IMG/VR virus record: IMGVR_UViG_3300031963_000957
Coordinates: 1 to 23,188 of that record
Source of the DNA: a virus
Length of the DNA stretch: 23,188 nucleotides
Direction: 5' to 3' (one strand)
Part shown: one piece after another, positions 1-22,485 of the stretch
Position numbering within the stretch: position 1 is the first letter of the stretch
How the letters are laid out: each line of letters opens with the position of its first letter
The notes under the pieces: generated by a model
Told to the model about the DNA's origin: nothing
Seen by the model: only the letters and a program-made list of their open reading frames with translations
Database searches by the model: none
Program-made: the position numbers and the translations under genes

Positions 1-2985
1 AATCAGATTAAAGGCAAACAGAACCGAGCACCGAAAGAAGAGTACTTGCCATTTGTGCAAGACTTTGTGAGGGGTGGTAAATGGTCTGATGTGCGAGACT
101 TCCAGAACACAGGGCTAATTCGTGAAGGCGATCAGATCATGACGCCTGCTGAACACGCAGACTGGTTGCTTAAAGAGTTGGGAGCAGATACTTACAACGA
201 GCTTGGACTAGGCGCCAAGATTCCACCAGCCGCAGGCATGAAGCGTGGAGGCAAGGTCTCCATCTCTAACAACCCAGACACCATGATGCTCGAGGTGAAC
301 AACCAGAAGATGAAGAACGGCGTCCCTGCCTATGGTGCAGGCAAGGCTGTGACCAAGATGGGTCTTAAAGCCGCCAAGAACGAAGTGCCTCGGCTATCCA
401 TGCAGTTTGGCAACGACCTGCCGATCAACATGAACACCGCTGAAGTCGAGAACTTGGCAAGGCGCTTCCCTGAGCCTACGGTTGATCGTGTGAACATGGC
501 GCACAAAGACGTGCTCAAGCGCACACCAGAGCTTCAGGAAGCCGCCGCACGTATCGAGGCTGGTGACATATCAGCCGATGAGTATGCGCGCCTTGTACAG
601 CGTTATAAGCCCGTTACGCCCTATGAGTCAGTCCCAGCGCCAGCCAGCCGTGAGGAGATTCTCGCCGCTCTGTCCAAAACCAGCCGCGAAGCTGAGGGTC
701 TGCCGCGCAAGGAGACGTACTTTGGCAAGCCATCCTCAACGCTGAAGGAAGGCGACCCTGTTGGTCTGCGCTTAGACATCCCGTCCTACAACCAAGCGAA
801 CACTTGGGTCGTTACGGCGCACGGCCCCCGCAAGAGCCCAGTCTCTGGTGGTGCAGGCACACGCATTGGTTACGAGCCTGTTGCCATGGCGACCGACGTT
901 GACTTTAGCGTCAGCCCCAAGGCGGCGTTAGGTATTGCCAAGGGCGCTGAGAAGAACACCATCGCCACCATGGAAGGCAAGTGGAAGCCCACAAGCTCCG
1001 ACGAGGCGTTCACGTTGGCTAAGCAGTACCTGAAGAACCCAGAGTGGCGTCAGGTTGGCATGGATCCAGAGCGTCACAGCTTCTTCTATGACCGCGAGAC
1101 CATGGCGCCTGTTGTCAATGCTGAAGAGGTCATCCAGATCGGCCCCCTCGTGCTGGCAAAGAACCCCAAGTTTGGCAAGCTGGAAGACTTCAAGTACGCC
1201 AGTGGCGGCTTGGCTCACATGAAGGAGGGCGGCTCTGAGGACGACGCTAAGCCCTACTTCGGTGGAGCTGGCACAAAGAAGTACGCCGCCGCTAAGAAAC
1301 GCGCCGAGCAGGCTGACGTAAACACACTGAAGGATCCTCGCACCTACGCCGCTGTAGCTGGCTTGATGGGTGAACGTCCAGATGAGATGGGCTTCAGTGT
1401 TCTGCACCCTGACTACCAAGCAATTAAAGACGTGGCTGAGCCTGCTTTTGGGCTAGGCATAGCCGCACAAGCCTACCCAATGCTTGGCCCTTTGACCAAG
1501 GGGTTGCCTGTTGGGGCTAGCGTTAAGAGCGTGTCGCCCTTAGAGTCGTCAGGCGTTTTTACCAGCGCCATGGCAAAAGCAGATGCCGAGCGCGCACTGC
1601 CTTTGGTATTGCCTCGTGCCATGCCAAAATCCTTGGATGAAATCAACTCCCATGCAGAGCGTGTTGCGCGTCAGATGATGGGTGAGCACGTTACCAGTGG
1701 AAAAGCTGGCGACACCAAGAACCTTGCGGGTCGATCCATGAAGGAAAGCCAGCGCGTCAAAGCTCTTGATTATGAGCTGACACCTACCAAGGCGGTTCCA
1801 GAGTCTCAGGTGTATCAGCCGCAGATTGGCGACATCAATGTGGCGTTGCCGGGTGACTTCACCCTTTCTGACGTTGAGCTAAAGAGCTTGATGGGTGAGG
1901 CAATAGGTTCACGCCAAGAGGGCGGCTCACGCTATGGGCTTGGACACATGAAGGCTAAGACGCCTTTGTTTTATGCTTCCAACGAAGTCCCAGCTCAAGC
2001 GGTGCAAAACAAAGCGACTGACTTGTCAAACCTGTTTGGTTCTGAGCGCATCATTGGACAACACATGGCGATGGGGCCAATAGCTACAAACTTTGCTCAG
2101 CACTTTGCTGATGCCAACTTGCGCTATATCGATTACAGCAAGCTCACGCCTGAGAACATGTATATGTTTGACAAGTTAATGGCTAAGGGCTTTGAGATTA
2201 CTAAGAAGAACCCTAAGACTGGCGAAATAATTGTCAAAGTTGTGGACTTCCCGCAGTGGCCCGGCATTGCAAACCCGCAAGCCGCCTACAAAGCCATGCA
2301 GAAGTACCCAGAGATGCGCAAGTACTTCAACAAGGTCATGCAGACGCCAAGCATCACTGAGCCTTTGAATTTACCTAATGGACTTGATGTTCGCTACGCA
2401 ATCACCAGCCCAGACTTGCGCGACATGGAAGTGAACCTGACTGGACATGGTGTTGGTCAATTGGTTCCAAATGCACCACTGACTGACACTGCAAAACACA
2501 AGACATACAGCAAGGGCATTCCCGGCATGTACTTGGGTCACCAAGAGGTTCTTACACCTTTTGCCATCTCATACCCTGATGCCGCTCAGCACATCATTAC
2601 GCATCAGCGTCCACAGGACTTCACTGGCACAATTCAAAAGGTGTTCCCACACCAGCGCGTTGACCAGCAGTTTATGGATGAAGTGGGAGCCTATCGCAGA
2701 CGCATCAAAGAGCTTACTGGTAGAAAGAAGGGCGGAGCCGTCAAGAAAGAAGGCGGAGCAATCCAAAAGCCAGCCGCCAAGATTGATGGCAACGAGTTCG
2801 TCCTAGCCGCCCAGAAGTACGGGATCAAGGACAGCATGAACAACCTGAACAAGATCGTAGACCTTGTCAACAAGGGCTTGTCAGTGGATGATGCGGCACG
2901 TCAAGTAGCTGACACTGGTATGCATAAAGCCGCTGGTGGAGCAATAAGTGGCGATGATCTGATCCTTGAAGAGAGACCGCTATGA
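1..2985 (+). CDS. Giant polyvalent-type phage protein, N-terminus cut by window edge
   Basis: The frame is open from base 1, so the true start lies upstream; the TTG at 46 is only an internal Leu codon. About 994 residues are visible. I recognise no catalytic site. A segment around visible residues 215-395 (with HSFFYDRETMAPVV and EEVIQIGPLVLAKN) and one around 640-905 (with FYASNEVPAQAV and NLPNGLDVRYAITSP) resemble conserved modules of large phage polyvalent proteins, from memory. A Gly/Ala/Pro-rich weakly hydrophobic stretch lies near residues 480-505. Gly-Gly motifs occur at about 238-258 (MKRGGKV), 1195-1233, 2725-2763 and 2926-2949. The gene ends in an ATGA overlap with the next giant gene, so the two are probably translated together. 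Position before the portal suggests a virion-associated or injected protein; this is inference. Function unknown. Confidence 0.85.
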   Translation, partial: NQIKGKQNRAPKEEYLPFVQDFVRGGKWSDVRDFQNTGLIREGDQIMTPAEHADWLLKELGADTYNELGLGAKIPPAAGMKRGGKVSISNNPDTMMLEVNNQKMKNGVPAYGAGKAVTKMGLKAAKNEVPRLSMQFGNDLPINMNTAEVENLARRFPEPTVDRVNMAHKDVLKRTPELQEAAARIEAGDISADEYARLVQRYKPVTPYESVPAPASREEILAALSKTSREAEGLPRKETYFGKPSSTLKEGDPVGLRLDIPSYNQANTWVVTAHGPRKSPVSGGAGTRIGYEPVAMATDVDFSVSPKAALGIAKGAEKNTIATMEGKWKPTSSDEAFTLAKQYLKNPEWRQVGMDPERHSFFYDRETMAPVVNAEEVIQIGPLVLAKNPKFGKLEDFKYASGGLAHMKEGGSEDDAKPYFGGAGTKKYAAAKKRAEQADVNTLKDPRTYAAVAGLMGERPDEMGFSVLHPDYQAIKDVAEPAFGLGIAAQAYPMLGPLTKGLPVGASVKSVSPLESSGVFTSAMAKADAERALPLVLPRAMPKSLDEINSHAERVARQMMGEHVTSGKAGDTKNLAGRSMKESQRVKALDYELTPTKAVPESQVYQPQIGDINVALPGDFTLSDVELKSLMGEAIGSRQEGGSRYGLGHMKAKTPLFYASNEVPAQAVQNKATDLSNLFGSERIIGQHMAMGPIATNFAQHFADANLRYIDYSKLTPENMYMFDKLMAKGFEITKKNPKTGEIIVKVVDFPQWPGIANPQAAYKAMQKYPEMRKYFNKVMQTPSITEPLNLPNGLDVRYAITSPDLRDMEVNLTGHGVGQLVPNAPLTDTAKHKTYSKGIPGMYLGHQEVLTPFAISYPDAAQHIITHQRPQDFTGTIQKVFPHQRVDQQFMDEVGAYRRRIKELTGRKKGGAVKKEGGAIQKPAAKIDGNEFVLAAQKYGIKDSMNNLNKIVDLVNKGLSVDDAARQVADTGMHKAAGGAISGDDLILEERPL

Positions 2986-5621
2986 CTATCATTGGAGCAC
3001 TGAGAGCCGCTAAGGCGGGTGAGAAGGTCAGGAAGACTGCACCTTTCTACTCCGCGGTGGATGAGGCGCTTGCTAACTTAAAACGCAACAAAGGTACAGG
3101 CGCCGAGTTTTTTTCTGAGCTTAAAAATACAAAAAATATTAAACCTGTTGAGTTGTCTGATCGTAAGCTTGAAGAAGCCTTTAAAGCCAAGGGCAAGATG
3201 ACCAAGGAAGAGGCTCAGCAAGTCCTAGCTGACAACCCGCCTCCAAAGGTTCAAGAGCGTATTCTTGAAGACATTGATGGCGATGAGCGTAGAAGGCTTC
3301 TTGATGACAAGATGGAGATTTATGGGTACGACAACTATCGTGAAGTGCCTCATCGAGTATTGCGTGAATGGAATGCAGAGATTGATGCTGAAGCCGCAAA
3401 GTATGCCGACGACGATTACAGAACTCAGGGCGGTAGCAATTACCGCGAGATGCTACTGAAGTTGCCTCAGTCTTATACCGAAAAAGACTTTCATCGTTTG
3501 TTGATGCTAGAGGCTGAACAGCGACGTGGTGACCTAACCCCTGCGCAAAGTAAAGAGATGGCAGAATTGCAGGCGAAGAAGCAAACAGCCGCATCCAACT
3601 ACCAATCTGGTCACTGGGACGATGCCAACGTGCTGGCGCACATGCGTGTGCAGGATAGGTTGATTGCCCAGCCCCCACAGAAGGGCTTCTACGTTGTCAA
3701 CAAGACGTCTGGTAGACAGTCAGCCATGTTTGACACACCTGAAGAGTTGCAGGCTTATGTTGAGACTTTGCCTGAAAGCATACGCAACAACGTGACCATG
3801 GCTCAAGGTGAACGCAAGGTTCCGCCAAGGAAGGTGTTGCAAGTCGAGGAGATCCAATCTGATTGGCATCAAGCTGGACGAAAAAAAGGTTACGCATCTG
3901 AGGAAAATCCAATGCGTATGACTGGCGAGGCTATACCTCTTGGCGACAACACCTACGGGGTGAAGTGGCAGGATGGCTCTGTAGATACGCTTGGTTACGG
4001 AAAACACCATGCGGAAACAATTGCTCAAGAAGGCAAGCTGACTGGGGTTGTTCCTGACGCTCCTTTCAAAAAGAATTGGCATGAGCTGGCAATGAAGCGT
4101 CTGCTGAACTATGCCGCTGAAAAGGGTTATGACGGTATAGCGATAACGCCCGGCGCGGAGCACTTCAAGCGCTACGGTAGTGAGCGCATTGATTGGAAGA
4201 AGGGCGATGACGGCTGGATTGTTGGAGCTAAGGAGCAGACTGGCGGACGCCATGAAGGTCGAGACCTTGAAGAGATTGCCCGTGATCGAGGCATCCTGCT
4301 TGAGCGAAGCGGTGACCAAGTCAAGTCTAAGGAAGACCTGCACCGCATTGTCAACACAGTATTGAATCGTGAAAACAACCCAGATCAGGTCAACAAGTTA
4401 ACGAACCGCATTTGGGATCGTATGCAGACTGAAGCTGAAGGTACGTCCCTGCCCCGCAAGGAGGGCATGGAGGGCTTCTACGACAAGATGCTGACCGACT
4501 ACCTGAATAGCTATGGTAGAGACTACGGCGCTCAAGTTCAGATGCGTCAGGTTGCGGCTACGCCTGAAGCCATGGAGAAGAAGTTCAACCTTAATCCTGA
4601 CAATTTGCCTGACATGAACGCAGAACAGGCTAGTGACTACAGCAAGATCCTACAAGGGTTTGGCAACACACAACTGTCTGACGTTCACTACTTCCCAATC
4701 ACTCAACCAATGCGTGAGTCCATCAAGCAGAAGGGTCTACCCCTGTACCAACAGGTTGGCATCCCAACTGCTGGCGCTGGTGCGGCTTCTCAGATGCTTG
4801 AGCCTGAAGAAGAGCCGCAGTATGGCACAGGTGGTGCTATTGCCAAGATGGCACTCAAAGCCGCGCCACAGGTTGTCAAGCCAAGCACTCTGACGGAGCT
4901 AAAGAAGGTTGTCCAGCAAGAGAAGGGTGGCTACGGCGCAAGGCGTATAGAACGTGCGGCTGACGAAGTCCCTAACCTTGAGAAGCTATACAAAGAGCAA
5001 GCGCTCAAAGAAGCTTTTCTTGGCGACAATGCAAAAGCTTTGATGACCATGAACCCTGCGGATTTTGAAAAGTACGCCGCAAAGCTGTTACCGCGAAACG
5101 TCTCCGTGCCGGGCGTCATGGGTGACAAGATGCGACAGTCAACCGAAGACTATGTAAAGTATTTACGAGAACTTCCTGAAGGTTTTAACGAGGCGCCGTA
5201 TCTTCTGATTAACAAAGAAGAGTTTGGTTTACCTTTGATTCCATACGTTACAGGGCACGAAGGTCGCCACCGCAACAGGGCATTGACCACCCAAGGCGAA
5301 AAATCAAATTTAGTTCGTTTTGTACCAAGTTTTGAATTGCGTGAGCCATTACCACGCCGCTCACAAGAAGAGTACATTGAAGGTCTAAAGCAAGAGTTGC
5401 AAATGACTGGCAACCAAGTTATGCCAGAAAAATACTGGGATGATTCGTTGCCTAAAAATTTATTGATTCAACGCCCACCAATACAACTGCCTGACATCTA
5501 CGCTAAAGGTGGAGCAGTTAAACCAAAAGTTAAAGACTCGAAAAGCGGCAAGGTTAGAATGACTGAGAACCGCGATACTATGTTCATGGAACTGAGCAAC
5601 AAGAAGCTCAAAAGGAAATAA
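2982..5621 (+). CDS. Second giant polyvalent-type phage protein with ParB-like GHEGRHR box
   Basis: This encodes 879 residues, starting in a 4-base ATGA overlap with the previous gene. Residues about 150-400 look like a module repeatedly seen in phage polyvalent proteins: GGSNYREMLLKLP, SGHWDDANVLAHMRVQDR, VEEIQSDWHQAGRKKGY (near residue 288), PFKKNWHELAMKRLL and GYDGIAITPGAEHFKRYG (near 381). Large polyvalent protein-associated domains are the family I have in mind, by memory only. A second module near residues 640-830 has the box GHEGRHRNRAL (near 757), which resembles the nucleotide-binding box of ParB/sulfiredoxin-like folds. Gly-Gly motifs are at 4821-4841 (YGTGGAI) and 5499-5519 (YAKGGAV). 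The end, MTENRDTMFMELSNKKLK, echoes a motif in the upstream giant. Bases about 3090-3150 are notably AT-rich. It is probably packaged or injected and may act early in infection; that is inference. Confidence 0.88.
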   Translation: MTIIGALRAAKAGEKVRKTAPFYSAVDEALANLKRNKGTGAEFFSELKNTKNIKPVELSDRKLEEAFKAKGKMTKEEAQQVLADNPPPKVQERILEDIDGDERRRLLDDKMEIYGYDNYREVPHRVLREWNAEIDAEAAKYADDDYRTQGGSNYREMLLKLPQSYTEKDFHRLLMLEAEQRRGDLTPAQSKEMAELQAKKQTAASNYQSGHWDDANVLAHMRVQDRLIAQPPQKGFYVVNKTSGRQSAMFDTPEELQAYVETLPESIRNNVTMAQGERKVPPRKVLQVEEIQSDWHQAGRKKGYASEENPMRMTGEAIPLGDNTYGVKWQDGSVDTLGYGKHHAETIAQEGKLTGVVPDAPFKKNWHELAMKRLLNYAAEKGYDGIAITPGAEHFKRYGSERIDWKKGDDGWIVGAKEQTGGRHEGRDLEEIARDRGILLERSGDQVKSKEDLHRIVNTVLNRENNPDQVNKLTNRIWDRMQTEAEGTSLPRKEGMEGFYDKMLTDYLNSYGRDYGAQVQMRQVAATPEAMEKKFNLNPDNLPDMNAEQASDYSKILQGFGNTQLSDVHYFPITQPMRESIKQKGLPLYQQVGIPTAGAGAASQMLEPEEEPQYGTGGAIAKMALKAAPQVVKPSTLTELKKVVQQEKGGYGARRIERAADEVPNLEKLYKEQALKEAFLGDNAKALMTMNPADFEKYAAKLLPRNVSVPGVMGDKMRQSTEDYVKYLRELPEGFNEAPYLLINKEEFGLPLIPYVTGHEGRHRNRALTTQGEKSNLVRFVPSFELREPLPRRSQEEYIEGLKQELQMTGNQVMPEKYWDDSLPKNLLIQRPPIQLPDIYAKGGAVKPKVKDSKSGKVRMTENRDTMFMELSNKKLKRK

Positions 5622-5624
5622 GCT

Positions 5625-8174
5625 ATGGCGACACAATTCCCACAAGATCCTAACGCGGGTCGTTTTATCGATGGGTTAAAAGATCAGCAGGTAGAGGCTG
5701 ACGAAGGCATTGAATACGAGATGCCCCCAGAAGATGCTGAGGTTGAAGAGTTGCCAGACGGCTCTGCCATTGTTCACATGGAGAGCAAGGGGCCCATGGA
5801 GGACGAGGACTTCTACGCCAACTTGGCAGAAGAGATCTCCCCCTATGACCTGAACAAGATTGCCCTGCGCTACATGGACTTGGTCGAGAACGACAAGAAG
5901 TCTCGAGAGGAGCGCGACAAGAAGTACGAAGAGGGTTTGAAGCGTACAGGCATGGGGAATGATGCCCCGGGCGGTGCTACGTTCATGGGCGCCAGCAAGG
6001 TCGTTCACCCTGTCATGGCTGAAGCCTGCGTGGACTTCGCCTCCCGCGCCATCAAAGAGATGTTCCCACCAGACGGCCCCACCCGCACCAAGATTCTTGG
6101 CGACGTGGATGAAGCCAAGATCCAGAAGGCTGAGCGCAAGCGCGACTACATGAACTGGCAGTTGACTGAGCAGATCGAAGAGTTCCGCGACGAGCAGGAG
6201 CAGATGCTGACTCAGCTCCCCTTGGGCGGTTCACAGTACATGAAGCTGTGGTACGACGACAAGAAGAAGCGTCCCTGCGCCGAGTTCATGCCCATCGACA
6301 ACATCCTGTTGCCCTTTGCCGCCGCGAACTTCTACACCGCTCAACGTGTCACTGAGATGCAGACCATTACCGAGTGGGAGTTCAAGAATCGCATTCGCTC
6401 AGGTCTGTACCGTGACATCGACTTGGTTCGCGTAAGCGCTGAGCCAGAGGAAACCCACTCTGAGAAAGCCAACAACAAGATCGAAGGTCGCAAATGGGAC
6501 GACAACGAGGATGGTCTGCGTAAGGTCTATCACATCTACACATGGCTCGAGCTAGAGGACGATCCCCTGACCAATGGTGAGTCAGCCCCCTACATCCTAA
6601 TGGTTGACGAGCACGAGAACGAGTGCGTTGGTCTGTACCGTAACTGGGAAGAGGGTGACGAGACACAGACCAAACTGGATTGGCTGGTCGAGTTCAAGTT
6701 CATCCCATGGCGTGGTGCGTACGCTATCGGCTTGCCACAGCTCATTGGTGGCCTCTCCGCGGCTCTTACAGGCTCTCTACGCGCTTTGTTGGACTCTGCC
6801 CATATCAACAATGCGGCAACCATGCTAAAGCTCAAGGGAGCGAAGATCTCGGGTCAGTCCCAACAGGTGGACGTGACGCAGGTTTGTGAGATCGAGGGAG
6901 CCCCCGGTGTTGACGACATCCGCAAGATTGCCATGCCCATGCCGTTTAACCCACCCTCAGAGGTCTTATTCAAGCTTCTGGGCTGGTTAGACGGTGCGGC
7001 TAAGGGGGTAGTGACCACCGCAGAGGAAAAGATCGCTGACGTGAACTCCAACACCCCTGTTGGAACCACCCAAGCTTTGATCGAGCAGGGCGCCGCAGTG
7101 TTCTCCGCCATCCACTCACGCCTGCATGACAGCCAAGGTCGCGTCCTCAAGATCCTTGGTCGCCTGAACCGTTGGTACTTGGAAGAGCAACGCAAGGGTG
7201 AAGTGGTCGCTGACCTCGATATTCGCAAGGAAGACTTTGCTTCCAACACGGACGTGATCCCTGTTTCTGATCCGCACATCTTCTCTGAGACTCAGCGTAT
7301 GGCGCAGAGCCAAGCGGTGATGCAGATCATGAAAGAGAACCCAGACCTGTTTAACCGCAAGGTCGTGGTGGAGCGGTTCTTGAAGCAGATCAAGGTGCCC
7401 GGGATCAACGAGATCATGAAAGACGTACCTTCTCCTGAGAAGCGTGACTCCGCCAATGAGAACGTCGCCATGATGCTCGGTCAAGCGGCGTTTGCTTACA
7501 TGGAGCAAGACCACCTGTCTCACATCCAGAGCCACATGGACTTCTACAAAGACCCAATCTTTGGTTCAAACCCCATGGTTCAGCCGATTATTCTGCCCCA
7601 GATGGTCGAGCACCTGAAGCAACACATCTCCATGTGGTACTTGAACCGCATGAATGGCTACGTTGTGAAGACCTTGGGTCGCCAAGCTACGGACTACGAC
7701 AATCCAAAGGTCACTCCAGAGGCGGACAAGCTCATGGCTATTGCCTCACAGCACGTTACCTTGGACACACAGAAGGTATTTGCGCAGGTTGTGCCTGAAT
7801 TGCAAGCAATGATGCAGACAATGCAGAAGCTCAAGCAGGGTCAGACCCCTCCAATGACACCAGAAGCACAGGTTTTGCTCCAGACAAGCATGGCAGAGAC
7901 CCAGCGCTTGACTGCAAAAGACCAAGCGGACAACCAATTGGCTGTTCAAAAGCTTCAAAACCAACAACAACTCGACGTTGCCAAGCTCACACAGAGCAAA
8001 CAGCAGTTCGAGTCGGATCAACAGCTCGAAGTGGCGATGCAAACAGAGAAAAATCTCACACAAGAGCGCATAGAGTCTGCAAGATTGACGCGAGACGCGG
8101 CAAAACTGCAACAAGAGCAGGTAAAAACTGCAACCGAGCTTCAACGTGAAGCACAAACCTACTTAGGAGGCTGA
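5625..8174 (+). CDS. Portal protein
   Basis: This encodes 849 residues, with Shine-Dalgarno AAAGGA at 5611-5616 and start at 5625. The portal forms the ring at one capsid vertex through which DNA is packaged and ejected. Support comes from size, acidic N-terminus, the segment ASKVVHPVMAEACVDFASRA (residues about 123-142), a conserved-looking core with NTPVGTTQALIEQGAAVFSA (about 484-503) and DVIPVSDPHIFSETQRMAQS (about 544), and its place just before scaffold and capsid genes. Residues about 740-845 are Gln/Lys/Glu-rich and predicted coiled coil, comparable to the C-terminal barrel of P22-type portals. The length is closer to P22-like than T7-like portals. The N-terminus contains VEELPDGSAIV (residues 40-50), matched by a similar motif in the scaffold-like protein. 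A virion-associated coiled-coil protein is the only alternative I considered. Confidence 0.9.
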   Translation: MATQFPQDPNAGRFIDGLKDQQVEADEGIEYEMPPEDAEVEELPDGSAIVHMESKGPMEDEDFYANLAEEISPYDLNKIALRYMDLVENDKKSREERDKKYEEGLKRTGMGNDAPGGATFMGASKVVHPVMAEACVDFASRAIKEMFPPDGPTRTKILGDVDEAKIQKAERKRDYMNWQLTEQIEEFRDEQEQMLTQLPLGGSQYMKLWYDDKKKRPCAEFMPIDNILLPFAAANFYTAQRVTEMQTITEWEFKNRIRSGLYRDIDLVRVSAEPEETHSEKANNKIEGRKWDDNEDGLRKVYHIYTWLELEDDPLTNGESAPYILMVDEHENECVGLYRNWEEGDETQTKLDWLVEFKFIPWRGAYAIGLPQLIGGLSAALTGSLRALLDSAHINNAATMLKLKGAKISGQSQQVDVTQVCEIEGAPGVDDIRKIAMPMPFNPPSEVLFKLLGWLDGAAKGVVTTAEEKIADVNSNTPVGTTQALIEQGAAVFSAIHSRLHDSQGRVLKILGRLNRWYLEEQRKGEVVADLDIRKEDFASNTDVIPVSDPHIFSETQRMAQSQAVMQIMKENPDLFNRKVVVERFLKQIKVPGINEIMKDVPSPEKRDSANENVAMMLGQAAFAYMEQDHLSHIQSHMDFYKDPIFGSNPMVQPIILPQMVEHLKQHISMWYLNRMNGYVVKTLGRQATDYDNPKVTPEADKLMAIASQHVTLDTQKVFAQVVPELQAMMQTMQKLKQGQTPPMTPEAQVLLQTSMAETQRLTAKDQADNQLAVQKLQNQQQLDVAKLTQSKQQFESDQQLEVAMQTEKNLTQERIESARLTRDAAKLQQEQVKTATELQREAQTYLGG

Positions 8175-8175
8175 A

Positions 8176-8331
8176 ATGGCTACATCTAACCCTTACCACA
8201 ACGAAGCAGTGCCCATGCACAAGCGTATTGCCGCTGGCGAAAAGCTTGATGGCTCGTCTTTGAAGACCTCTGGCAACACAGCGCCAGCCAAAAAACAAGG
8301 AGGCGCCCTATCGCAAGCTAAGAAAAAATAA
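8176..8331 (+). CDS. Small Lys-rich protein with Gly-Gly motif, unknown
   Basis: A 51-residue protein beginning MATSNPYHNEAVPMHKRIAA and ending in a basic tail, KKQGGALSQAKKK. A strong Shine-Dalgarno, AGGAGG at 8165-8170, sits five bases before the ATG and inside the end of the portal gene. The stop codon shares its last base with the next start (TAATG). No domain is recognised. The QGGAL segment is a single copy of the Gly-Gly motif found in the giant proteins and in the 355-residue protein, so it may belong to the same functional set. The strong ribosome site and tight packing argue that it is a real gene. Confidence 0.75.
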   Translation: MATSNPYHNEAVPMHKRIAAGEKLDGSSLKTSGNTAPAKKQGGALSQAKKK

Positions 8332-8522
8332 TGTTATTCAATTTGGGTGATCTGATCGGCGCAATCAAGGTGCGTCAAGCTGAAATAGCTTCTTCCCTAG
8401 CGGCTGGAAACGTCGCGTCATGGGAGGCGTACCAACGCACGGTCGGCACAAACTTGGGATTGCAGGAAACCCTCGATCTCATTAACAAAATGTTAAAGGA
8501 CAAAGAAGAAGATGAGCGATAA
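8331..8522 (+). CDS. Small predicted helical protein, unknown
   Basis: A 63-residue protein, MLFNLGDLIGAIKVRQAEIA at its start, with an acidic-basic tail KMLKDKEEDER. It looks almost wholly alpha-helical, with WEAYQRTVGTNLGLQETLDL in the middle. No strong Shine-Dalgarno lies directly upstream; the start is in a TAATG overlap with the previous stop, which suggests translational coupling. Its last 11 bases overlap the GroES-like gene. Small helical proteins between portal and scaffold genes are common in phages, but I cannot name a family. It may be an assembly factor; function unknown. Confidence 0.75.
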   Translation: MLFNLGDLIGAIKVRQAEIASSLAAGNVASWEAYQRTVGTNLGLQETLDLINKMLKDKEEDER

Positions 8523-8946
8523 CCCCGAAGTGTTGGAAAACGCTGAAGTGAAGTGGGCATTCCCCGCTGTTAGCCCGGGTGCTAAGCCATTAGGTGGTCG
8601 AATTTTGGTGCAATTACGTCGCACAAAACAGAAAACGACAAGCGCAGGGATCATTTTGGTAGAAGAGACCAAAGAGACCGAGAAGTGGAACAACATGGTG
8701 GCAAAAGTCATCGAAGTTGGCCCTCTCGCATTCAAAAACCGTGACACCATGCAAGGCTGGCCTGAAGGCTCGTGGTGCGAGGTCGGTGATTACATCCGAG
8801 TCCCCAAATGGGGCGGAGATCGTTGGGAAGTTAAGGTTGAAGGACAGGACGATCACGAAGATCCAGCCCTGTTCATGATCCTGAATGACCACGAAATCAT
8901 TGCCAAAGTCATTGGTGATCCCCTAGCTATGAAAGCATTCTTATGA
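8512..8946 (+). CDS. GroES-like co-chaperonin
   Basis: This encodes 144 residues against about 97 for bacterial GroES. The chaperonin-10 fold is suggested by PLGGRILVQLRRTKQKT (around residues 24-40), a mobile-loop-like stretch TSAGIILVEE, the segment AKVIEVGPLAF, and a late strand FMILNDHEIIAKVIGDP. Extra length comes from about 25 N-terminal residues and an enlarged centre containing NRDTMQGWPEGSWCEVGDYI and a Trp-rich turn. In T4, gp31 replaces GroES so that host GroEL can fold the large capsid protein; placement here beside scaffold and capsid genes fits the same role, which is inference. The start overlaps the previous gene by 11 bases, with AAAGGA at 8495-8500, and the stop forms an ATGA overlap with the scaffold gene. 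Confidence 0.85.
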   Translation: MSDNPEVLENAEVKWAFPAVSPGAKPLGGRILVQLRRTKQKTTSAGIILVEETKETEKWNNMVAKVIEVGPLAFKNRDTMQGWPEGSWCEVGDYIRVPKWGGDRWEVKVEGQDDHEDPALFMILNDHEIIAKVIGDPLAMKAFL

Positions 8947-9896
8947 CCACAGAAAACGAACTTGACAAGATTGTTGTCACCGAGGAAGCAGACGGTTCAG
9001 CCGTTATTGACCTTCCTGACAGCATTGAATCCCCTGATGAACAGGAAGACGACCGCATGGCGGCTGGCGGCTCTGCTGACCAAGCTGACGACGACGTAAT
9101 TCCTGAAGACGAGACTGAATACCAACGCGCACGTCGTGAAAAGCGTCGTGCCAAGCGGGATTTGGCTAAGAAGACAGGCGTAGAGAAGGACATGAAACTC
9201 CAGCTCTTGGAACGCAAGAACCAAGAATTGATGGAGCGTTTGTCCGTTGTGGAGCGCAAAACCCACTCTGCTGACCTAGCCCGTATCGACAAGGCTATTG
9301 AAGACCAAGAACTTCGCTTGCAGTACGCCAAGATGAAGATCTCTGAGGCGGCAAGCGCTTCTGACGGTCACGCCATGGCAGAAGCCCAAGAGATGATGTA
9401 CGAAGCCCGTCGCCAGATGGAAGCTTTGTCCAACTTCAAGAAGGCGGCTGTAGAGCCTCGCCAGTCCCAAGGAAACGTCCCAGATCCTCGCCTGCAACGC
9501 TTGGCGGCGAACTGGATGGAAAAGAATGATTGGTACGACCCGAACGCTCGGGACACCGATTCCAAGATTGCAAAGCAAATTGACGAGACTCTGGTTTCAG
9601 AGGGTTGGGATCCAACCTCACCTGATTACTGGAATGAACTCGATAATCGCTTGCATAAGTACTTGCCACACAAGTACAATGACACCACGGACGTACGTTC
9701 GTCTACTAAGAGACCAAGGAGTGTTGTAACAAGTTCTGGTCGCGAAAGCGTCAACGGAAGCACCAACAGGAACACATTTGTACTGAAACCAGAACAAGTG
9801 CGCGCAATGAAGGATGCTGGCTTTTGGGATGATCCCGATAAGCGATCCAAGATGATTAAGCGATATGCGCAAGAAGCTCGAAACAACTCTTACTAA
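8943..9896 (+). CDS. Capsid scaffolding-like protein
   Basis: This encodes 317 residues, starting in an ATGA overlap with the GroES-like gene. The N-terminal 60 residues are very acidic (DEQEDDR, QADDDVIPEDETEY); residues about 60-165 are charged and likely coiled coil, beginning with the basic run RARREKRRAKR; the C-terminal part contains WNELDNRLHKYLPHKYND and the final helix KRSKMIKRYAQEARNN. An acidic, helical protein with a basic C-terminal helix placed between portal and major capsid genes is typical of scaffolds, which guide capsid assembly and then leave. There is no sign of a protease domain. The motif EADGSAVIDLP (residues 15-25) resembles one in the portal N-terminus. Assignment rests on architecture and context, not on a recognised family. 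Confidence 0.75.
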   Translation: MTTENELDKIVVTEEADGSAVIDLPDSIESPDEQEDDRMAAGGSADQADDDVIPEDETEYQRARREKRRAKRDLAKKTGVEKDMKLQLLERKNQELMERLSVVERKTHSADLARIDKAIEDQELRLQYAKMKISEAASASDGHAMAEAQEMMYEARRQMEALSNFKKAAVEPRQSQGNVPDPRLQRLAANWMEKNDWYDPNARDTDSKIAKQIDETLVSEGWDPTSPDYWNELDNRLHKYLPHKYNDTTDVRSSTKRPRSVVTSSGRESVNGSTNRNTFVLKPEQVRAMKDAGFWDDPDKRSKMIKRYAQEARNNSY

Positions 9897-9906
9897 GGAA
9901 ACAAGT

Positions 9907-10458
9907 ATGACCGAATCACGTTTGAAAAAATCTCTGAACGCAGGTGGACGCAATGATCGCGCAAGCGAGGACGCCAGTCGCGCCGCTCCAGAAACAAAGT
10001 TCGTAAGCTCACAGGAACGTCGAAAGATGTGGAGTGATGAATGGAACCAATCAGCACTGCCAAAAGTACCAGAGATGCCGGGCTGGCACCTCATTTGGCT
10101 CTCAACCACCAACGCATACGACACCATTGATAAAAGGGTGCGACTTGGCTACATTCCCGTGAAAGCGGACGAAATGGCTGGGTTCGACAACTACAAAGTC
10201 AAAGCTGGCGAACACGTTGGGTACATATCATGCAACGAGATGTTGCTGTTCAAATTGCCCATGGATGTCTACCAAGACGTTATGGCGCAACTGCACTTCG
10301 AAGCTCCCCAAGAAGAGGCGGACAAAGTCCGTGTTCAGCTTGAGAACCTTCAAGGTCAGCGTGACAGTAGCGGCAAGTCGCTGGTACGGTTGGAAGGCGA
10401 AGGTATGGGTAGGTTTGACCAATCTCAATCTAATCGTGCCCCCATTTTTGAGGGCTAA
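9907..10458 (+). CDS. Conserved head-region protein, unknown
   Basis: This encodes 183 residues from the ATG at 9907. That start is chosen because AAGGAA at 9895-9900, fused to the previous stop, lies just upstream; an in-frame ATG at 9865 would extend it into the scaffold gene without a ribosome site. The first 50 residues are basic and likely disordered. The core reads PEMPGWHLIWLSTTNAYDTI, then RVRLGYIPVKADEM, followed by KAGEHVGYISCNEMLLFKLP. The tail has a helix with EEADKVRVQLENLQGQ and ends NRAPIFEG. I believe similar proteins occur next to scaffold genes in other podovirus-like phages, but I cannot name a function. Its position suggests a capsid or head-completion role. Confidence 0.8.
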   Translation: MTESRLKKSLNAGGRNDRASEDASRAAPETKFVSSQERRKMWSDEWNQSALPKVPEMPGWHLIWLSTTNAYDTIDKRVRLGYIPVKADEMAGFDNYKVKAGEHVGYISCNEMLLFKLPMDVYQDVMAQLHFEAPQEEADKVRVQLENLQGQRDSSGKSLVRLEGEGMGRFDQSQSNRAPIFEG

Positions 10459-10476
10459 CTTCTAAGGAGTAAGACT

Positions 10477-11067
10477 ATGTCTGCTACAAATGCTCCGTTC
10501 GGTTTGCGTCCTGCGTACCACCCCTCTGGGTTGGATCGCGCAACTGCGTTGGCTGACGGTATTCTCTCGACTTATTCGACCGACATCTTGAAGGGTCAGC
10601 CCGTCAAGTTGGCTACATCTGGAGTAATCCAAGTTGCCGCCGCTGGTGATGCGTTTGTTGGCGCATTCTCTGGTGTCGAATTCACTGACACAACTGGTCG
10701 TCGCCGCGTGTCGAACTACTGGCCTGCCTCCACGGCATACCAGACAGGTTCATGCGTTGCTTACTACTATGATGATCCCAACATCGTTTACGAAATCCAA
10801 GCTGATGGTTCATTAGCTCAGACTTCTGTAGGCGCTGAGTCGGATTTGAGTGCGACAACTGCTGGTTCAACGACCACTGGTTTGTCACAGTGCACCATTA
10901 GCACCTCGGTTGTTGCCGCTGGTTCTGGTGCTCAAATGCGAATCATCAATCTCGCTCCGTACCCCGGCAATGCTTGGGGAGACTCTTTCACTATCGTTCG
11001 CGCAACTGTGGCTAAGCATCAATATGCCCAGATCGCGTCTGGTGGTGGTTACCCCGTAGCTATCTAA
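10477..11067 (+). CDS. Probable capsid decoration or minor head protein
   Basis: This encodes 196 residues with AAGGAG at 10464-10469, seven bases before the ATG. It starts MSATNAPFGLRPAYHPSG, a beginning I associate with phage head-gene products, and is rich in Thr, Ser, Gly and Ala with short beta-type segments such as GVIQVAAAGDAFVGAFSGVE and SCVAYYYDDPNIVYEIQADG. There is no signal peptide or membrane segment. It lies directly before the major capsid gene, where many phages encode a decoration protein that stabilises the shell. That role is inferred from position and composition. A minor structural protein elsewhere in the virion is possible. Confidence 0.7.
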   Translation: MSATNAPFGLRPAYHPSGLDRATALADGILSTYSTDILKGQPVKLATSGVIQVAAAGDAFVGAFSGVEFTDTTGRRRVSNYWPASTAYQTGSCVAYYYDDPNIVYEIQADGSLAQTSVGAESDLSATTAGSTTTGLSQCTISTSVVAAGSGAQMRIINLAPYPGNAWGDSFTIVRATVAKHQYAQIASGGGYPVAI

Positions 11068-11083
11068 TAGGAGGACATGAATC

Positions 11084-12001
11084 ATGGCCGCTCCAATGCG
11101 CAGTACCGACTTTCGTAGCATCGTCGAACCTATCTTGAATGAATGTTTCGACGGTGTCTACGACCAACGTGCCGATGAATGGTCTCGTGTTTTCACGGAA
11201 CAAGAAGGCATCCCCCGCAACTACCACGAAGAACCCGTCTTGTACGGTTTCGGCGCGGCACCTCAGTTGCCTGACGGCACTCCTGTGTCGTACCAACAAG
11301 GTGGTGTGTTGTTCTTGAAACGCTATGTGTACTCTGTGTACGGCTTGGCATTTGCTTTGACCAAAGTTTTGGTTGAAGACGGTGACCACATCCGTATCGG
11401 TCAGGTGTACGCACGTCACTTGGCTCAGTCATTGATTGAGACCAAAGAGACATTGTCTGCTAACGTGTTGAACAACGCCTTCACAGGTGGTGCTACAGCA
11501 GGTGGCGACGGCGTTGCTTTGATCAGCACTGCTCACCCAATCGTGAACGGTACATTCAGCAACCAATTGGCTACAGCCGCCAATCTGTCACAGACATCGC
11601 TTGAGCAGATGTTGATCCAGATTCGTCAAGCTGTGGACAACAACGGTAAGAAGATTCGCCTTGTGCCCCGCCAATTGGTGGTCGCCCCCGGCAACGTCTT
11701 CCAAGCTGAAGTTCTCCTGAAATCCGTCTTGCGCGCAGGTAATGCAAACAACGACATCAACCCTGTCAAGTCCATCGGTTTGTTGGACGAAGGCGCGGCT
11801 GTTTTGTCACGTTTGACCAATGCGTCAGCATTCTGGGTACAGACCGACGCTCCTGAAGGCATGAAGCTGATGATGCGTCGTAAGCTCGAGAAGACCATGG
11901 AAGGCGACTTCGAAACTGACTCTATGCGCTACAAAGCGACAGAGCGTTACGACGTTGGCTTCACTGATCCTCGTGCGATGTACGGCACTGCTGGCGTCTA
12001 A
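11084..12001 (+). CDS. Major capsid protein (HK97 fold)
   Basis: This encodes 305 residues. TAGGAGG at 11068-11074 precedes the ATG at 11084; another ATG at 11077 is in a different frame. The N-terminus, FRSIVEPILNECFDGVYDQR, is helical like an N-arm; the middle has ARHLAQSLIETKETLSANVL (spine-helix-like) and then GGDGVALISTAHPIVNG; RLVPRQLVVAPGNVFQAEVL and FWVQTDAPEGMKLMMRRKLE look like the core beta and A-domain elements of Mu-type and related HK97-fold capsid proteins. It would form the icosahedral shell, assembled on the scaffold and possibly folded by GroEL with the phage GroES-like protein. There is no obvious N-terminal delta domain, consistent with a separate scaffold gene. A stable hairpin follows the stop. 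Confidence 0.88.
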   Translation: MAAPMRSTDFRSIVEPILNECFDGVYDQRADEWSRVFTEQEGIPRNYHEEPVLYGFGAAPQLPDGTPVSYQQGGVLFLKRYVYSVYGLAFALTKVLVEDGDHIRIGQVYARHLAQSLIETKETLSANVLNNAFTGGATAGGDGVALISTAHPIVNGTFSNQLATAANLSQTSLEQMLIQIRQAVDNNGKKIRLVPRQLVVAPGNVFQAEVLLKSVLRAGNANNDINPVKSIGLLDEGAAVLSRLTNASAFWVQTDAPEGMKLMMRRKLEKTMEGDFETDSMRYKATERYDVGFTDPRAMYGTAGV

Positions 12002-12009
12002 AACCAAGT

Positions 12010-12025
12010 GGGGGGTTCGCCCCCC
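12010..12025 (+). terminator. UUCG hairpin after the major capsid gene
   Basis: Six G, the loop TTCG, then six C form a perfect six-pair GC stem closed by a tetraloop, nine bases after the capsid stop codon. The downstream sequence is GCGCTTTAAGG, so the U-tract is poor. It may act as a partial terminator, or as a 3' stabiliser that raises capsid mRNA relative to downstream genes. The next gene's AAGGAG (12033-12038) follows closely. Confidence 0.6.
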
Positions 12026-12046
12026 GCGCTTTAAGGAGAAAAGACA

Positions 12047-12496
12047 ATGGCACAAACCTATTTTGGTTCTACCCTGCGCGCTGGTTCTGGCACATTGACT
12101 GACACCACTGACGGCGGTTTCGTCGTTATGTCTCAGACAACTACTGTCACAACCGCCGCCGCAGGCACCGCTACGAGCGCAACTCTGACTCTCCCTGCTT
12201 CCTCACAAATTATCAGCTTTTTTGCCGATATGGTTGTGAACGAAGCAGTGGGTGGCGGTACAGCTACAGCAATTGCAATGACCGTTGGCACAGCCGCCGC
12301 AGGCACACAATACGTGTCTTCGACTGATGTGTTTGCTGGTGGTCGCATTGCCCTAACCTTTACAGCCGCTCAGTTGCTCGCAATGAGCGACATTGGTAGC
12401 AATACCTCTGTTGTTGTTACGCTTGACCCTGATGGCACGATCAGCACAACTCAAGGCGTTATTCGCCTGACGGTTGTGTATGCTCAGAAAGTTTAA
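12047..12496 (+). CDS. Small beta-rich virion-type protein, unknown
   Basis: This encodes 149 residues with AAGGAG at 12033-12038, eight bases before the ATG. Composition is dominated by Thr, Ala, Val, Gly and Ser in alternating beta-type segments (for example TSATLTLPASSQIISFFADM and GVIRLTVVYAQKV). There is no charge cluster, Cys pair or membrane helix. The beginning MAQTYFGSTLRAGSG and the beta pattern suit a capsid decoration protein or small head-surface protein. It follows the major capsid gene and its hairpin, so it may be read at a lower level. No family is recognised with certainty. Confidence 0.7.
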   Translation: MAQTYFGSTLRAGSGTLTDTTDGGFVVMSQTTTVTTAAAGTATSATLTLPASSQIISFFADMVVNEAVGGGTATAIAMTVGTAAAGTQYVSSTDVFAGGRIALTFTAAQLLAMSDIGSNTSVVVTLDPDGTISTTQGVIRLTVVYAQKV

Positions 12497-12507
12497 GGAG
12501 CACGATC

Positions 12508-13575
12508 ATGGGTCAATTCAAGCCAATGGTCAAAATGGAGACCACAGAGCCTTCTATTGAGTTAAAGCTCAAAAAAGGCGGATCCGTGAAGAAGGCTATG
12601 GGTGGCGGCATGATGGGTGCGCCCATGGATGCTTCTATGGCATCTTCAGGCCCTGCTCGCGGTGGCATGATGCCCGTTGCTCGTCCTAAGCGTCCTACTA
12701 TGGCGGCACGTCGTGCGGCTATGATGGGCATGAAGGGTATGCAAGGCGGCATGAAAGAAGGCGGCGAGTCTAAGGCTACGCACAAGGCTGAAATGTCGAA
12801 GATGAAGGGTCTTGAAAAAGAGCTGAAGTCTCACGAAGATAAGCCTGCCAGCAAGGGTCATAAAGGTCTTGCTACTGGTGGCGTCTTGAAGTCGACGAAG
12901 CCCGGCAACTACGCCACAGGTGGTGTTGTGAACGGTCAAGGCGGCTACAAAAAGGGCGGTGCTATCGCCAAAAGCGGCGTGATTCCTGAGTCTGTATCTG
13001 CCAAAGGCGGAGAAGGCTACAAGAACACCAAGATGGTCACAGCCCATCCTGACAACAACAGCGCCCCCACAGGCGAGGTCAAGTTAGGTAATGGCGGTGG
13101 TTACAAAAAAGGCGGTGCAACAAAAAAGCACTACGCTACGGGGGGAGCTGTTAATAACAGCGGTCACGCCGTAGCAATGCCTGCGAAAAAGCCATCTGCT
13201 CCTGTCAGCAATGATCGTCAATCTGGCACCTTTAAAAAGGGTGGCAGTGTGACACCAGCCCAGAAGAAAGAGCAATCTGCCTTCAAGGCTGAGAACGCAA
13301 CAGCGATGAAGCAAGCGAAAGCCCAGAGCAACCTGAAGTATCAAGATGGCGGGAAAGTAACTGACCTATCCAAAGGCGCTTACGACAAATCAATCGGCCC
13401 AAGCGAGAGTGATATGGACATGGCTAAAACCATCCGTAGCATTCCTAGCAAGCTGTATGAGGGTGCTAAGAGCCTGTTTACTAGCAAGGACAAGCCTTCT
13501 GGCTCTGTCACCAAGACTGAAAAGTCCGTGACAGTAACCCCTGCAAAGAAACGTGGTGGATCAGTAAAGTGCTGA
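12508..13575 (+). CDS. Lys/Gly/Met-rich repeat protein with many Gly-Gly motifs
   Basis: This encodes 355 residues with AAGGAG at 12495-12500 fused to the previous stop codon. It is basic and low in complexity, with no hydrophobic core or membrane helix, so it is probably disordered. Gly-Gly motifs recur along it: KKGGSVKK, MKEGGES, LATGGVL, YATGGVV, GYKKGGAI, GYKKGGATKK, HYATGGAV, FKKGGSV, YQDGGKV and the C-terminal KKRGGSVKC. The first third is also Met-rich (GGGMMGAP, MMGMKGMQGGM). The N-terminus has METTEPSIELKLKKGG, which vaguely recalls the 'DTM..E' motif of the giant proteins. Cells and virions could use such a protein as a DNA-binding or internal head protein; the high Lys content makes this plausible but I have no direct support. 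A terminator follows immediately. Confidence 0.85.
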   Translation: MGQFKPMVKMETTEPSIELKLKKGGSVKKAMGGGMMGAPMDASMASSGPARGGMMPVARPKRPTMAARRAAMMGMKGMQGGMKEGGESKATHKAEMSKMKGLEKELKSHEDKPASKGHKGLATGGVLKSTKPGNYATGGVVNGQGGYKKGGAIAKSGVIPESVSAKGGEGYKNTKMVTAHPDNNSAPTGEVKLGNGGGYKKGGATKKHYATGGAVNNSGHAVAMPAKKPSAPVSNDRQSGTFKKGGSVTPAQKKEQSAFKAENATAMKQAKAQSNLKYQDGGKVTDLSKGAYDKSIGPSESDMDMAKTIRSIPSKLYEGAKSLFTSKDKPSGSVTKTEKSVTVTPAKKRGGSVKC

Positions 13576-13579
13576 ACCT

Positions 13580-13605
13580 AAGTGGGGGCTTCGGCTCCCA
13601 CTTTT
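13580..13605 (+). terminator. Intrinsic terminator with UUCG tetraloop
   Basis: AAGTGGGGGC pairs with GCTCCCACTT (one G-T wobble) to give a ten-pair stem around the loop TTCG, with a C-G closing pair, followed by TTTT. It begins five bases after the stop of the 355-residue gene and precedes the next gene's GGAG. It matches a classic Rho-independent terminator and probably ends or attenuates transcription of the capsid section. Confidence 0.82.
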
Positions 13606-13619
13606 AATTGGAGATTTAA

Positions 13620-13904
13620 ATGTCAACATTGACGAATGTATTTTCGGAACACAGAGATACAACGGGCGTAATTTACGCTGGTGCAACGAATCTTGCTGGG
13701 TATCAGTTATTGACTGGCGGTACTGCTGGTGAAATTGTGTTTCGCGACGGCGGTGCATCTGGCACTGTTCGCTTGAGAGTGAACATCTCTGCTACGCCAA
13801 CTAATCCCTTTTCGACGCTGTTGCCCGGCAACGGGATCCGCTTCACAACAAACATCCATGTCACCTTGCCTGCTAGTGCGGCTGTGACTATTTTCTGCGG
13901 CTAA
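13620..13904 (+). CDS. Small beta-rich protein, unknown virion-type
   Basis: This encodes 94 residues; GGAG at 13610-13613 lies six bases before the ATG. The sequence alternates short beta segments and Gly/Ser/Thr turns, such as AGYQLLTGGTAGEIVFRDGG and the C-terminal IHVTLPASAAVTIFCG. It ends in Cys-Gly. No transmembrane segment or known motif is evident. It is the first gene after the terminator, so either readthrough or an unrecognised promoter must supply transcription. Small beta proteins at this place in phage genomes are often head or neck components, but the assignment is by position only. Confidence 0.65.
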   Translation: MSTLTNVFSEHRDTTGVIYAGATNLAGYQLLTGGTAGEIVFRDGGASGTVRLRVNISATPTNPFSTLLPGNGIRFTTNIHVTLPASAAVTIFCG

Positions 13905-13906
13905 TC

Positions 13907-14422
13907 ATGCCAAGCAAATCCGCCGCCCAACACAAGCTGATGCAAATTGCCGCTCACACAAAGGGTGGCTTTGGTGGTGTCCCTCAGAAGGTCGGCAAAG
14001 AGTTTGCCAAGGCTGACAAGGGTAAAGAATTTAAAGAAGGTGGTCTGTATGCCAACATTCATGCAAAACGTGAAAGAATCGCTGAAGGCTCTGGGGAGAA
14101 AATGCGCAGAGTTGGTAGCGAAGGTGCGCCAACGGCTAAAGCCTTCAAGCAATCCGCCAGAACAGCCAAAATGAAGGACGGAGGGGTCAGCCTCTCCATT
14201 GGTCGCGGTGAGAAGCTACCTGCCGACAAGGGCGCTGGTTTGACAGCCAAAGGTCGTGCCAAGTACAACCGTGAAACAGGATCAAATTTAAAGGCTCCAC
14301 AACCCCAAGGAGGCTCCCGCAGAGACTCGTTTTGCGCGAGAATGGAGCCTATAGCAGAAAAGAGCGAAAAGGGTAGTCGAGCTCGTGCATCAATGCAACG
14401 GTGGAACTGCCCAAGCTGGTAA
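13907..14422 (+). CDS. Basic protein made of several conserved short phage modules
   Basis: This encodes 171 residues, starting two bases after the previous stop. It is strongly basic and Lys/Arg/Gly-rich. Three short conserved-looking modules follow one another: residues about 3-45 (SKSAAQHKLMQIAAHTKGG, resembling DUF3008-type proteins), about 46-90 (GLYANIHAKRERIAEGSGEK then SEGAPTAKAFKQSARTAK), and about 90-150 (GVSLSIGRGEKLPADKG, then GLTAKGRAKYNRETGSNLKA and SFCARM, resembling DUF6321). These names are from memory. Gly-Gly motifs sit at the joints (TKGGFGG, FKEGGLY, MKDGGVS). A DNA-binding or virion-packed protein would fit the charge. No function is known to me. Confidence 0.82.
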   Translation: MPSKSAAQHKLMQIAAHTKGGFGGVPQKVGKEFAKADKGKEFKEGGLYANIHAKRERIAEGSGEKMRRVGSEGAPTAKAFKQSARTAKMKDGGVSLSIGRGEKLPADKGAGLTAKGRAKYNRETGSNLKAPQPQGGSRRDSFCARMEPIAEKSEKGSRARASMQRWNCPSW

Positions 14423-22333: not shown

Positions 22334-22485
22334 TGAAACTGCAACTGCCAATTGAAACAGCAAACCAACTTTTGGGTTACTTGGGTACGCGCCCTTACCA
22401 AGAAGTCTTCCAACTAATCCAAGCAATTCAGGAAGCCGCAAAGCCTCCAGAGCCAAAGGCTGAAGATGGAAACGGTGGAGACTAA
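22333..22485 (+). CDS. Tiny helical protein, unknown
   Basis: A 50-residue protein, MKLQLPIETANQLLGYLGTR at the start, PYQEVFQLIQAIQEAAK in the middle, and an acidic Pro/Glu/Gly tail. The start is in a TAATG overlap with the previous gene and its last 20 bases overlap the endonuclease gene. It is probably one amphipathic helix. Similar short proteins follow tail genes in other phages, but I have no name for it. Confidence 0.65.
   Translation: MKLQLPIETANQLLGYLGTRPYQEVFQLIQAIQEAAKPPEPKAEDGNGGD

Follow-up and report, generated by a model that had tools for sequence, protein, structure and literature searches.

A recurring Gly-Gly peptide in giant and disordered proteins of a phage head gene cluster as a candidate docking motif

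The Gly-Gly motif and the genes that carry it

The DNA analysed here is a 23,188-base stretch of viral sequence (IMG/VR record IMGVR_UViG_3300031963_000957, positions 1-23,188), referred to at its full length as the window, in which a short peptide centred on Gly-Gly recurs in proteins that are otherwise unrelated. Its main carriers are g1 and g2, two giant modular proteins encoded directly upstream of the portal gene g3, and g12, which is encoded downstream of the major capsid gene g10. No Pfam family was matched by g1 or g2, and each has one weak PHROG match, that of g1 covering amino acids (aa) 285-378 (phrog_586). From the Gly-Gly (GG) contexts of g12 homologues only, we derived a weight matrix, whose consensus is [YFM]-[AK]-x-G-G-x-[VAI], namely, an aromatic residue or Met at position -3, Lys or Ala at -2, an open position -1, the GG pair, an open position +2, and Val, Ala or Ile at +3. 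Two small genes, the first of which is g4, sit between g3 and g6; genes g7, g8, g9, g10, g11, g12, g13, g14, g15, g16 and g17 follow in this order, with further genes beyond them, and g17 matches fibre families. The positions of these features and of the motif copies are given in Table 1.

Table 1. Genes of the window discussed in the text and the copies of the Gly-Gly motif that they carry.
Feature	Position	Strand	Basis or remark
g1, giant modular protein, 994 aa, truncated 5' by the window edge	1-2985	+	6 motif copies by matrix
MKRGGKV, at start of 'NPDTM' module in g1	238-258	+	translation, matrix
YASGGLA, closes phrog_586-like module of g1	1195-1215	+	matrix, homologue comparison
MKEGGSE, g1, second of a pair 8 residues apart (YASGGLAHMKEGG)	1219-1239	+	matrix, homologue comparison
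Pair RKKGGAV / KKEGGAI, g1	2722-2763	+	matrix
KAAGGAI, GG 14 residues ahead of g1 C-terminus	2926-2946	+	translation, matrix
g2, giant modular protein, 879 aa	2982-5621	+	modelled region about 24-590; low-confidence 590-879
YGTGGAI, g2 aa 617, past modelled part, low pLDDT	4821-4841	+	matrix, model
YAKGGAV, g2 aa 843, ahead of C-terminal 'NRDTM' module, low pLDDT	5499-5519	+	matrix, model
g3, portal protein, without motif	5625-8174	+	phrog_1216; 0 matrix hits in 81 homologues
g4, 51-aa protein, C-terminal KKQGGAL at 8290-8310	8176-8331	+	fails matrix
g6, GroES-like co-chaperonin (Cpn10)	8512-8946	+	domain match
g7, scaffold-like protein	8943-9896	+	phrog_28737 (no function given); scaffold by position only; candidate partner
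g10, major capsid protein	11084-12001	+	Phage_capsid_4; candidate partner
g12, 355-aa Lys/Gly-rich protein, predicted disordered, ends KKRGGSVKC	12508-13575	+	13 copies by matrix
LKKGGSV, g12	12568-12588	+	GG invariant in alignment A3
YATGGVV and YKKGGAI, g12	12910-12966	+	alignment A3
YKKGGAT and YATGGAV, g12	13102-13152	+	GG invariant in alignment A3
FKKGGSV, g12	13231-13251	+	GG invariant in alignment A3
KKRGGSV, g12 C-terminal copy	13546-13566	+	GG invariant in alignment A3
g14, 171 aa, mini-module chain (SKSAAQHKLM, GLYANIHAKR, DUF6321)	13907-14422	+	Pfam/PHROG
FKEGGLY, g14	14030-14050	+	fails matrix; on edge of conserved GLYANIHAKR module
MKDGGVS, g14	14171-14191	+	passes matrix
g15, SU10-type tail adaptor	14432-15502	+	PF24175, E 2.7e-6

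Enrichment, conservation and placement of the motif

All the strings listed in the initial annotation of this DNA (YAKGGAV, YATGGVV and others) occur in the translations, and its literal pattern, [YFWK].[KTE]GG[AVKI], gives seven matches in the 22 window proteins, all of them in g1, g2 and g12. That annotation had proposed a comparison with shuffled sequence, above which the motif clearly stands: composition shuffles gave a mean of 0.53 matches (maximum 4 in 1000 shuffles), and shuffles in which the GG pairs were kept gave 0.97 (maximum 5 in 1000). The relatives examined comprise 1612 open reading frames (ORFs) of 84 loci, namely, 80 viral contigs and four named phages, near-duplicates included; the counts that follow include relatives unless they are marked as dereplicated. 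Here too the homologues of the three proteins lie well above the GG-kept expectation, with 31 matches against 6.4 for g1, 16 against 3.7 for g2 and 95 against 9.9 for g12. The corresponding figures are 3 against 1.4 for g14 and 3 against 0.6 for g9, and, for ORFs without a window homologue, 0 against 0.7 on the minus strand and 12 against 8.9 on the plus strand. The portal homologues also exceed expectation (19 against 4.0), but since the matrix gives no hit in this slot, that excess is not counted as the mobile motif.

The matrix was then applied to the other proteins at a single chosen threshold of 4.0, with the following results. First, in the relatives it gave 132 hits in g1 homologues (8.0 expected), 59 in g2 homologues (5.3), 20 in g14 homologues (3.2) and 44 in unassigned plus-strand ORFs (11.2), and no hits in the portal, GroES, g8 and capsid slots. 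Second, a hold-out matrix, retrained on the 33 g12 homologues less than 75% identical to the window protein, passed six of the ten isolated GGs of g1 (mean of 0.2 expected, p 0.001), two of the five of g2 (0.1 expected, p 0.005) and 13 of the 14 of g12; the initial annotation had counted about ten copies in this last protein, which has nine by a relaxed regular expression. The signal was weak in g14 (1/5, p 0.19), and absent from g4 (0/1) and from the 17 other window proteins (0/46). Third, in 45 dereplicated proteins longer than 600 aa (16 g1-like, 12 g2-like and 17 with no homologue in the window, a few tail proteins being among the latter), the hold-out matrix passed 97 of 488 isolated GGs against 7.8 expected (maximum 22 in 200 shuffles), and 35 of the 45 carry at least one hit. 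Viral relatives found by their portal have at least one matrix hit in 75 of 80 cases and at least two in 71.

The motif had been assigned to five proteins; this holds for g1, g2 and g12, weakly for g14, and not for g4. The KQGGAL string of g4 was rejected as a copy, given the absence of matrix hits both in the window protein and in its 36 homologues (0/38 isolated GGs in this slot); a looser expression gives 13 matches in the g4 homologues against 3.9 expected. FKEGGLY of g14 is not retained as a copy either (Table 1). Some part of g14 is matched in 443 phage records, mostly of cyanophages, and in Pelagibacter phage HTVC201P relatives of its GLYANIHAKR and DUF6321 modules are adjoining stand-alone genes between scaffold and capsid. 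An artefact of the composition of Gly/Lys-rich proteins might be suspected, as Gly makes up 16% and Lys 14% of g12 homologues and a two-residue core is easily seen by eye; however, both kinds of shuffle, the hold-out matrix and the reversed-order controls reported below lead us to reject this explanation, which we regard as extremely improbable.

Selection on the motif acts at the level of amino acids. In an alignment of 25 g12 sequences (A3), identity at the window's matrix-passing copies is 98.3% for GG, 80.2% for position -3, 74.6% for position +3 and 73.6% for the flanks, compared with 67.6% for all other columns and 77.6% for other Gly; GG thus stands out, -3 does so less strongly, and +3 does not on average, yet Val is invariant at four of the +3 positions. 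When the 22 window copies are compared with one another, the codons of their GG pair share the third base in 32% of cases, where 36.6% is expected from other Gly codons, and it is therefore the peptide and not the DNA that is conserved. This variability makes it very hard to believe that the stretch is a DNA-level recombination joint, kept because short homology promotes module exchange, in spite of its location at the homology breakpoints described below. The g12 family typically ends (13546-13575) in KKRGGxVKC or a sequence near it, and the terminal Cys is present in 22 of the 25 aligned homologues.

In both structural models that were made, the motif copies lie in low-confidence sequence. 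For g12 the model (25-sequence alignment) predicts disorder and offers no confident fold, with a mean predicted local distance difference test score (pLDDT) of 47.6 and a predicted template modelling score of 0.15. The model of g2 (15-sequence alignment) has a mean pLDDT of 54, and both motif copies fall in the low-confidence region past the modelled part. Searches of solved structures with g2, g12 and g14 returned no match at E 0.05 or better, and Foldseek with the g2 model none at E 0.001 or better.

The placement of the motif agrees with the initial description of copies at joints or near protein ends. A homology breakpoint lies within 5 aa of 56 of 99 motif GGs in the 45 dereplicated long proteins, compared with 82 of 366 other GGs and a random expectation of 19.9 (maximum 32 in 500 draws); with low-complexity masking the figures are 50 of 99 against 18.2. 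Likewise, 64 of 220 motif GGs, and only 32 of 781 other GGs, lie 60 aa or less from the C-terminus (115 proteins longer than 500 aa, near-duplicates included). A case in point is the phrog_586-like stretch of g1 that ends in the motif (aa 231-410), which, when searched in relatives, was found in 17 proteins with distinct tails: [YF]xxGG stands at the same place in 14 of them (YAGGG in four), 12 residues later in L089, and is missing from L116, whereas L102 is cut. Several different continuations follow it, the NPDTM module or the C-terminus included. Two tails recur in the giants, namely, DLILxERPL a few residues past the last motif (g1, 2926-2985; L024) or an NPDTM/NRDTM module (g2; L105).

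Such a placement also suits a flexible module linker without a binding partner, that is, a selected and shuffled YxxGGxV hinge between mini-domains that would thread through portal and tail. The low pLDDT around both g2 copies, a modular architecture with swapped contents and g12 +3 columns that are on average no better conserved than their flanks are all compatible with a hinge. This explanation, however, sits poorly with other observations: residue order matters, reversed patterns being far rarer; the g12 -3 columns reach 80% identity against 74% for the flanks, and the four +3 Val are invariant; and neither 13 copies in g12 nor copies near C-termini, which link little, would be expected of it. 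We thus consider a mere linker unlikely, though it is the alternative to be taken most seriously.

Carrier proteins and head genes beyond the window

The reach of the motif, and its dependence on residue order, were evaluated by searching IMG/VR with back-translated patterns. YAxGGxVHM gave 108 stretches, and its reversed order four; YAKGGxVK gave at least 120, and its reversed order 49 in a full scan, the forward matches including related phages that are not independent. Contigs with YAxGGxVHM (first set) and with YAKGGxVK (second set) were characterized among the matches listed, 80 loci each, which are not phylogenetically independent. The ORFs around the 81 sites of the first set all either reach 80 aa or run off a contig end; their median length is 1084 aa, and 46 of the 81 have at least two motif copies. 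The 80 sites of the second set are in shorter ORFs (median 164.5 aa), eight of them closed and below 80 aa, and at least two copies occur in 47 of the remaining 72. In 257 gigabases of bacterial and archaeal genomes, the variant YAKGGxVKK, which is present in 20 of the 80 viral loci among the matches listed, was found in only 14 stretches, eight of them in frames below 100 aa. One contig from a metagenome-assembled genome of Bacteroidia (L360) is probably a phage contig, judging from its small motif protein, which is closely like that of viral contig L281.

The motif is largely confined to one class of carriers. The 38 non-redundant proteins of the first set include seven with ART-PolyVal, four with PcfJ, three with LPD23, two each with DUF6321 and DUF7178, and single cases of InPase, minor-tail and GP88 domains, while four of the six giants scanned for domains have ART-PolyVal, LPD23 or PcfJ. 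Several disparate domains may meet in one relative, as in L039 (ART-PolyVal and PcfJ) and L122 (LPD23 and PcfJ, with ART-PolyVal below its cut-off). The second set includes a LysM protein (L231) and a Peptidase_M23 protein (L298). Polyvalent proteins, to which the ART-PolyVal, LPD23, PcfJ and InPase domains link the giants' relatives directly ahead of the portal gene, are the subject of a prediction by Iyer et al. (2017, PMC5512222), according to which they are packaged and injected; the main text of that paper mentions no Gly-Gly motif ('glycine' and 'gly-gly' each occur 0 times). Genes for polyvalent proteins stand among those for virion structure, as do g1 and g2; these two proteins of the window differ in having no Pfam match, and a metallopeptidase, which is common but not universal in polyvalent proteins, is absent from the matches.

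The spacing of the copies bears on the possibility that the modules are released by a protease, of phage or host origin, that cleaves at Gly-Gly. In the second set, 83 of 144 gaps between consecutive copies are 15 residues or less, 11 and 9 being the commonest values, mostly in small proteins, and of the 67 copies in closed ORFs, 12 stop no more than 10 residues short of the C-terminus; intervals are longer in the giants. Processing, one of the roles that had been suggested initially, is disfavoured by these numbers, at least in small proteins, because cleavage at copies 9-13 residues apart and at others a few residues from C-termini would only free tiny peptides. In its favour are the copies at module joints and the role in processing polyvalent proteins that Iyer et al. 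(2017, PMC5512222) propose for zincin-like metallopeptidases. However, no metallopeptidase family appears among the Pfam matches of g1, g2, the six giants and the 38 motif proteins, several of which are cut by contig ends and none of which was part of a systematic protease search, and we regard processing as improbable. Double-glycine leaders and the sites of Gly-Gly-cutting viral proteases resemble the motif in that a hydrophobic residue stands a few positions ahead of Gly-Gly. The window motif differs from them in its dense tandem and near-terminal copies, and no dedicated protease was found, none having been searched for systematically.

A Gly-Gly beside Lys and aromatic residues, in repeats, is also a feature of RGG/KGG boxes and of the Pfam KGG repeat. 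By analogy, the repeats of the window could coat or compact DNA, which would suit g12, predicted to be disordered and with Gly/Lys-rich homologues. But in many of the giants' copies GG is preceded by an acidic residue, with few charges nearby (YAEGGDVHM, YADGGDVHM), so that positive charge is not the conserved feature, and g12 matches no Pfam family at E 0.01, the KGG repeat and other curated repeat families included. Nucleic-acid binding or condensation is therefore a quite improbable role.

In metagenomic contigs, the motif goes together with the head and neck genes of the window phage. Profiles of g3, g7, g8, g10 and g15 matched second-set contigs in 52 of 80 cases, first-set contigs in 18 of 78 (L015 and L048 left out) and none of 49 contigs carrying the reversed pattern; for contigs of at least 11 kb, the figures are 18 of 26, 8 of 22 and 0 of 20, respectively. 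Among 118 mid-sized ORFs of motif contigs (119 were selected, and one motif protein was left out), the commonest of the 25 families listed were phrog_28737 (14) and SU10_adaptor (9), and Phage_capsid_4 was found in five. Record MW202701, whose motif carriers are one giant, one 863-aa and one 108-aa protein, has a Phage_capsid_4 capsid and a portal of PF23899 (SU10_portal), although its head genes escape the window profiles. The head of Kuravirus SU10 carries ejection proteins gp20-24 (a passage of PMC9509320), and the adaptor and capsid of the window match the families PF24175 (SU10_adaptor) and Phage_capsid_4; unlike these, the window portal matches phrog_1216 but has no Pfam match.

The nearest named records by portal are MW202545 (65%), Caulobacter phage RW (47%), Roseobacter phages CRP-901/902 (33%) and Pelagibacter phage HTVC027P (32%), and a tblastn search with g12 against 50,697 phage records found MW202545 as its sole match. 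A GroES-like co-chaperonin within the head cluster is also found in the four named relatives. The g15 adaptor has an F5/8 type C-like insert at aa 99-205 (E 3.8e-4, below Pfam's cut-off), and g22 (22466-23005) has, by eye, the look of an HNH-type homing endonuclease.

Possible roles of the motif

The initial annotation proposed a shared recognition signal, and this is supported by the occurrence of the motif in non-homologous proteins beyond what composition explains, its conservation as protein, its place at joints and ends and its dependence on residue order. The interpretation that we favour, with a probability of roughly 0.45, is that the repeated peptide is a docking motif that would gather ejected and internal proteins of the head cluster for packaging. 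Loading into the particle is the leading suggestion as to its purpose since the carriers are encoded in the head cluster and are of a class for which packaging and injection are predicted. Together with the co-occurrence with one head/neck type, this renders plausible, by analogy with polyvalent proteins, the earlier suggestion of packaging into the head.

Docking of this kind may be envisaged as follows. The tagged set would consist of large polyvalent proteins, predicted to be injected, of the many-copy and presumably disordered g12, and elsewhere of small Lys-rich and LysM-bearing proteins. All would bind one common partner through a core made of an aromatic residue or Met and a flexible Gly-Gly, and be collected, packaged and then ejected along with the DNA, the tag being kept as modules are swapped. 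More speculatively, the partner could be the prohead interior, with scaffold-like g7, capsid g10 or portal g3 as candidates; alternatively, g12 itself might serve as a multivalent hub. The targeting sequence of T4 internal proteins and encapsulin cargo peptides are short, frequently terminal peptides shared by cargo proteins that have nothing else in common. The window motif is likewise short and borne by non-homologous proteins, but it is also internal and present in many copies.

Several observations weigh against docking. First, residue -1 is nearly free, and the +3 columns of g12 are on average no better kept than the flanks, so the recognised surface may be small. Second, the placement of the motif is explained almost as well by a flexible linker, and the breakpoints near it could in part reflect alignments that stop at any short conserved patch. 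Third, a few matrix hits occur in other slots (five against 0.8 expected for g7, seven against 0.8 for g9, in few proteins). Fourth, no window-type head gene was found on 28 of 80 motif contigs of the second set and 60 of 78 of the first, many of them short, nor, at 11 kb or more, on 8 of 26 and 14 of 22. Fifth, in the stretches scanned, isolated GGs pass the matrix in 0 of 56 cases in RW, 0 of 53 in CRP-901 and 1 of 56 in HTVC027P, whose head genes are related and evidently do not require the motif; E. coli phage SU10, the namesake of the adaptor family, is essentially without it as well (1 of 76 in the 40 kb scanned).

It is tempting to go further and to see in the motif a portable peptide code of a widespread phage lineage, an address label by which effector and internal proteins, in varying sets, would be loaded into the virion, with modules swapping freely as long as the label stays and g12 acting as the loading hub; we hold this wider proposal to be doubtful. 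The tag group consists mostly of uncultured phages. No account of this motif was found in the titles, abstract starts and passages of the open-licence literature, and the passage of the P-SCSP1u paper (PMC10575957) that bears on the subject has nothing on small virion proteins. To our knowledge, how phages choose the effector proteins carried in their heads is mostly unknown. If docking is correct, a tag readable in sequence would allow virion cargo to be listed straight from genomes and mini-modules of unknown function to be recognised as cargo, and it could guide the delivery of proteins by phage particles. Even as a mere hinge, the motif would help to locate the boundaries of modules in proteins that have diverged widely.

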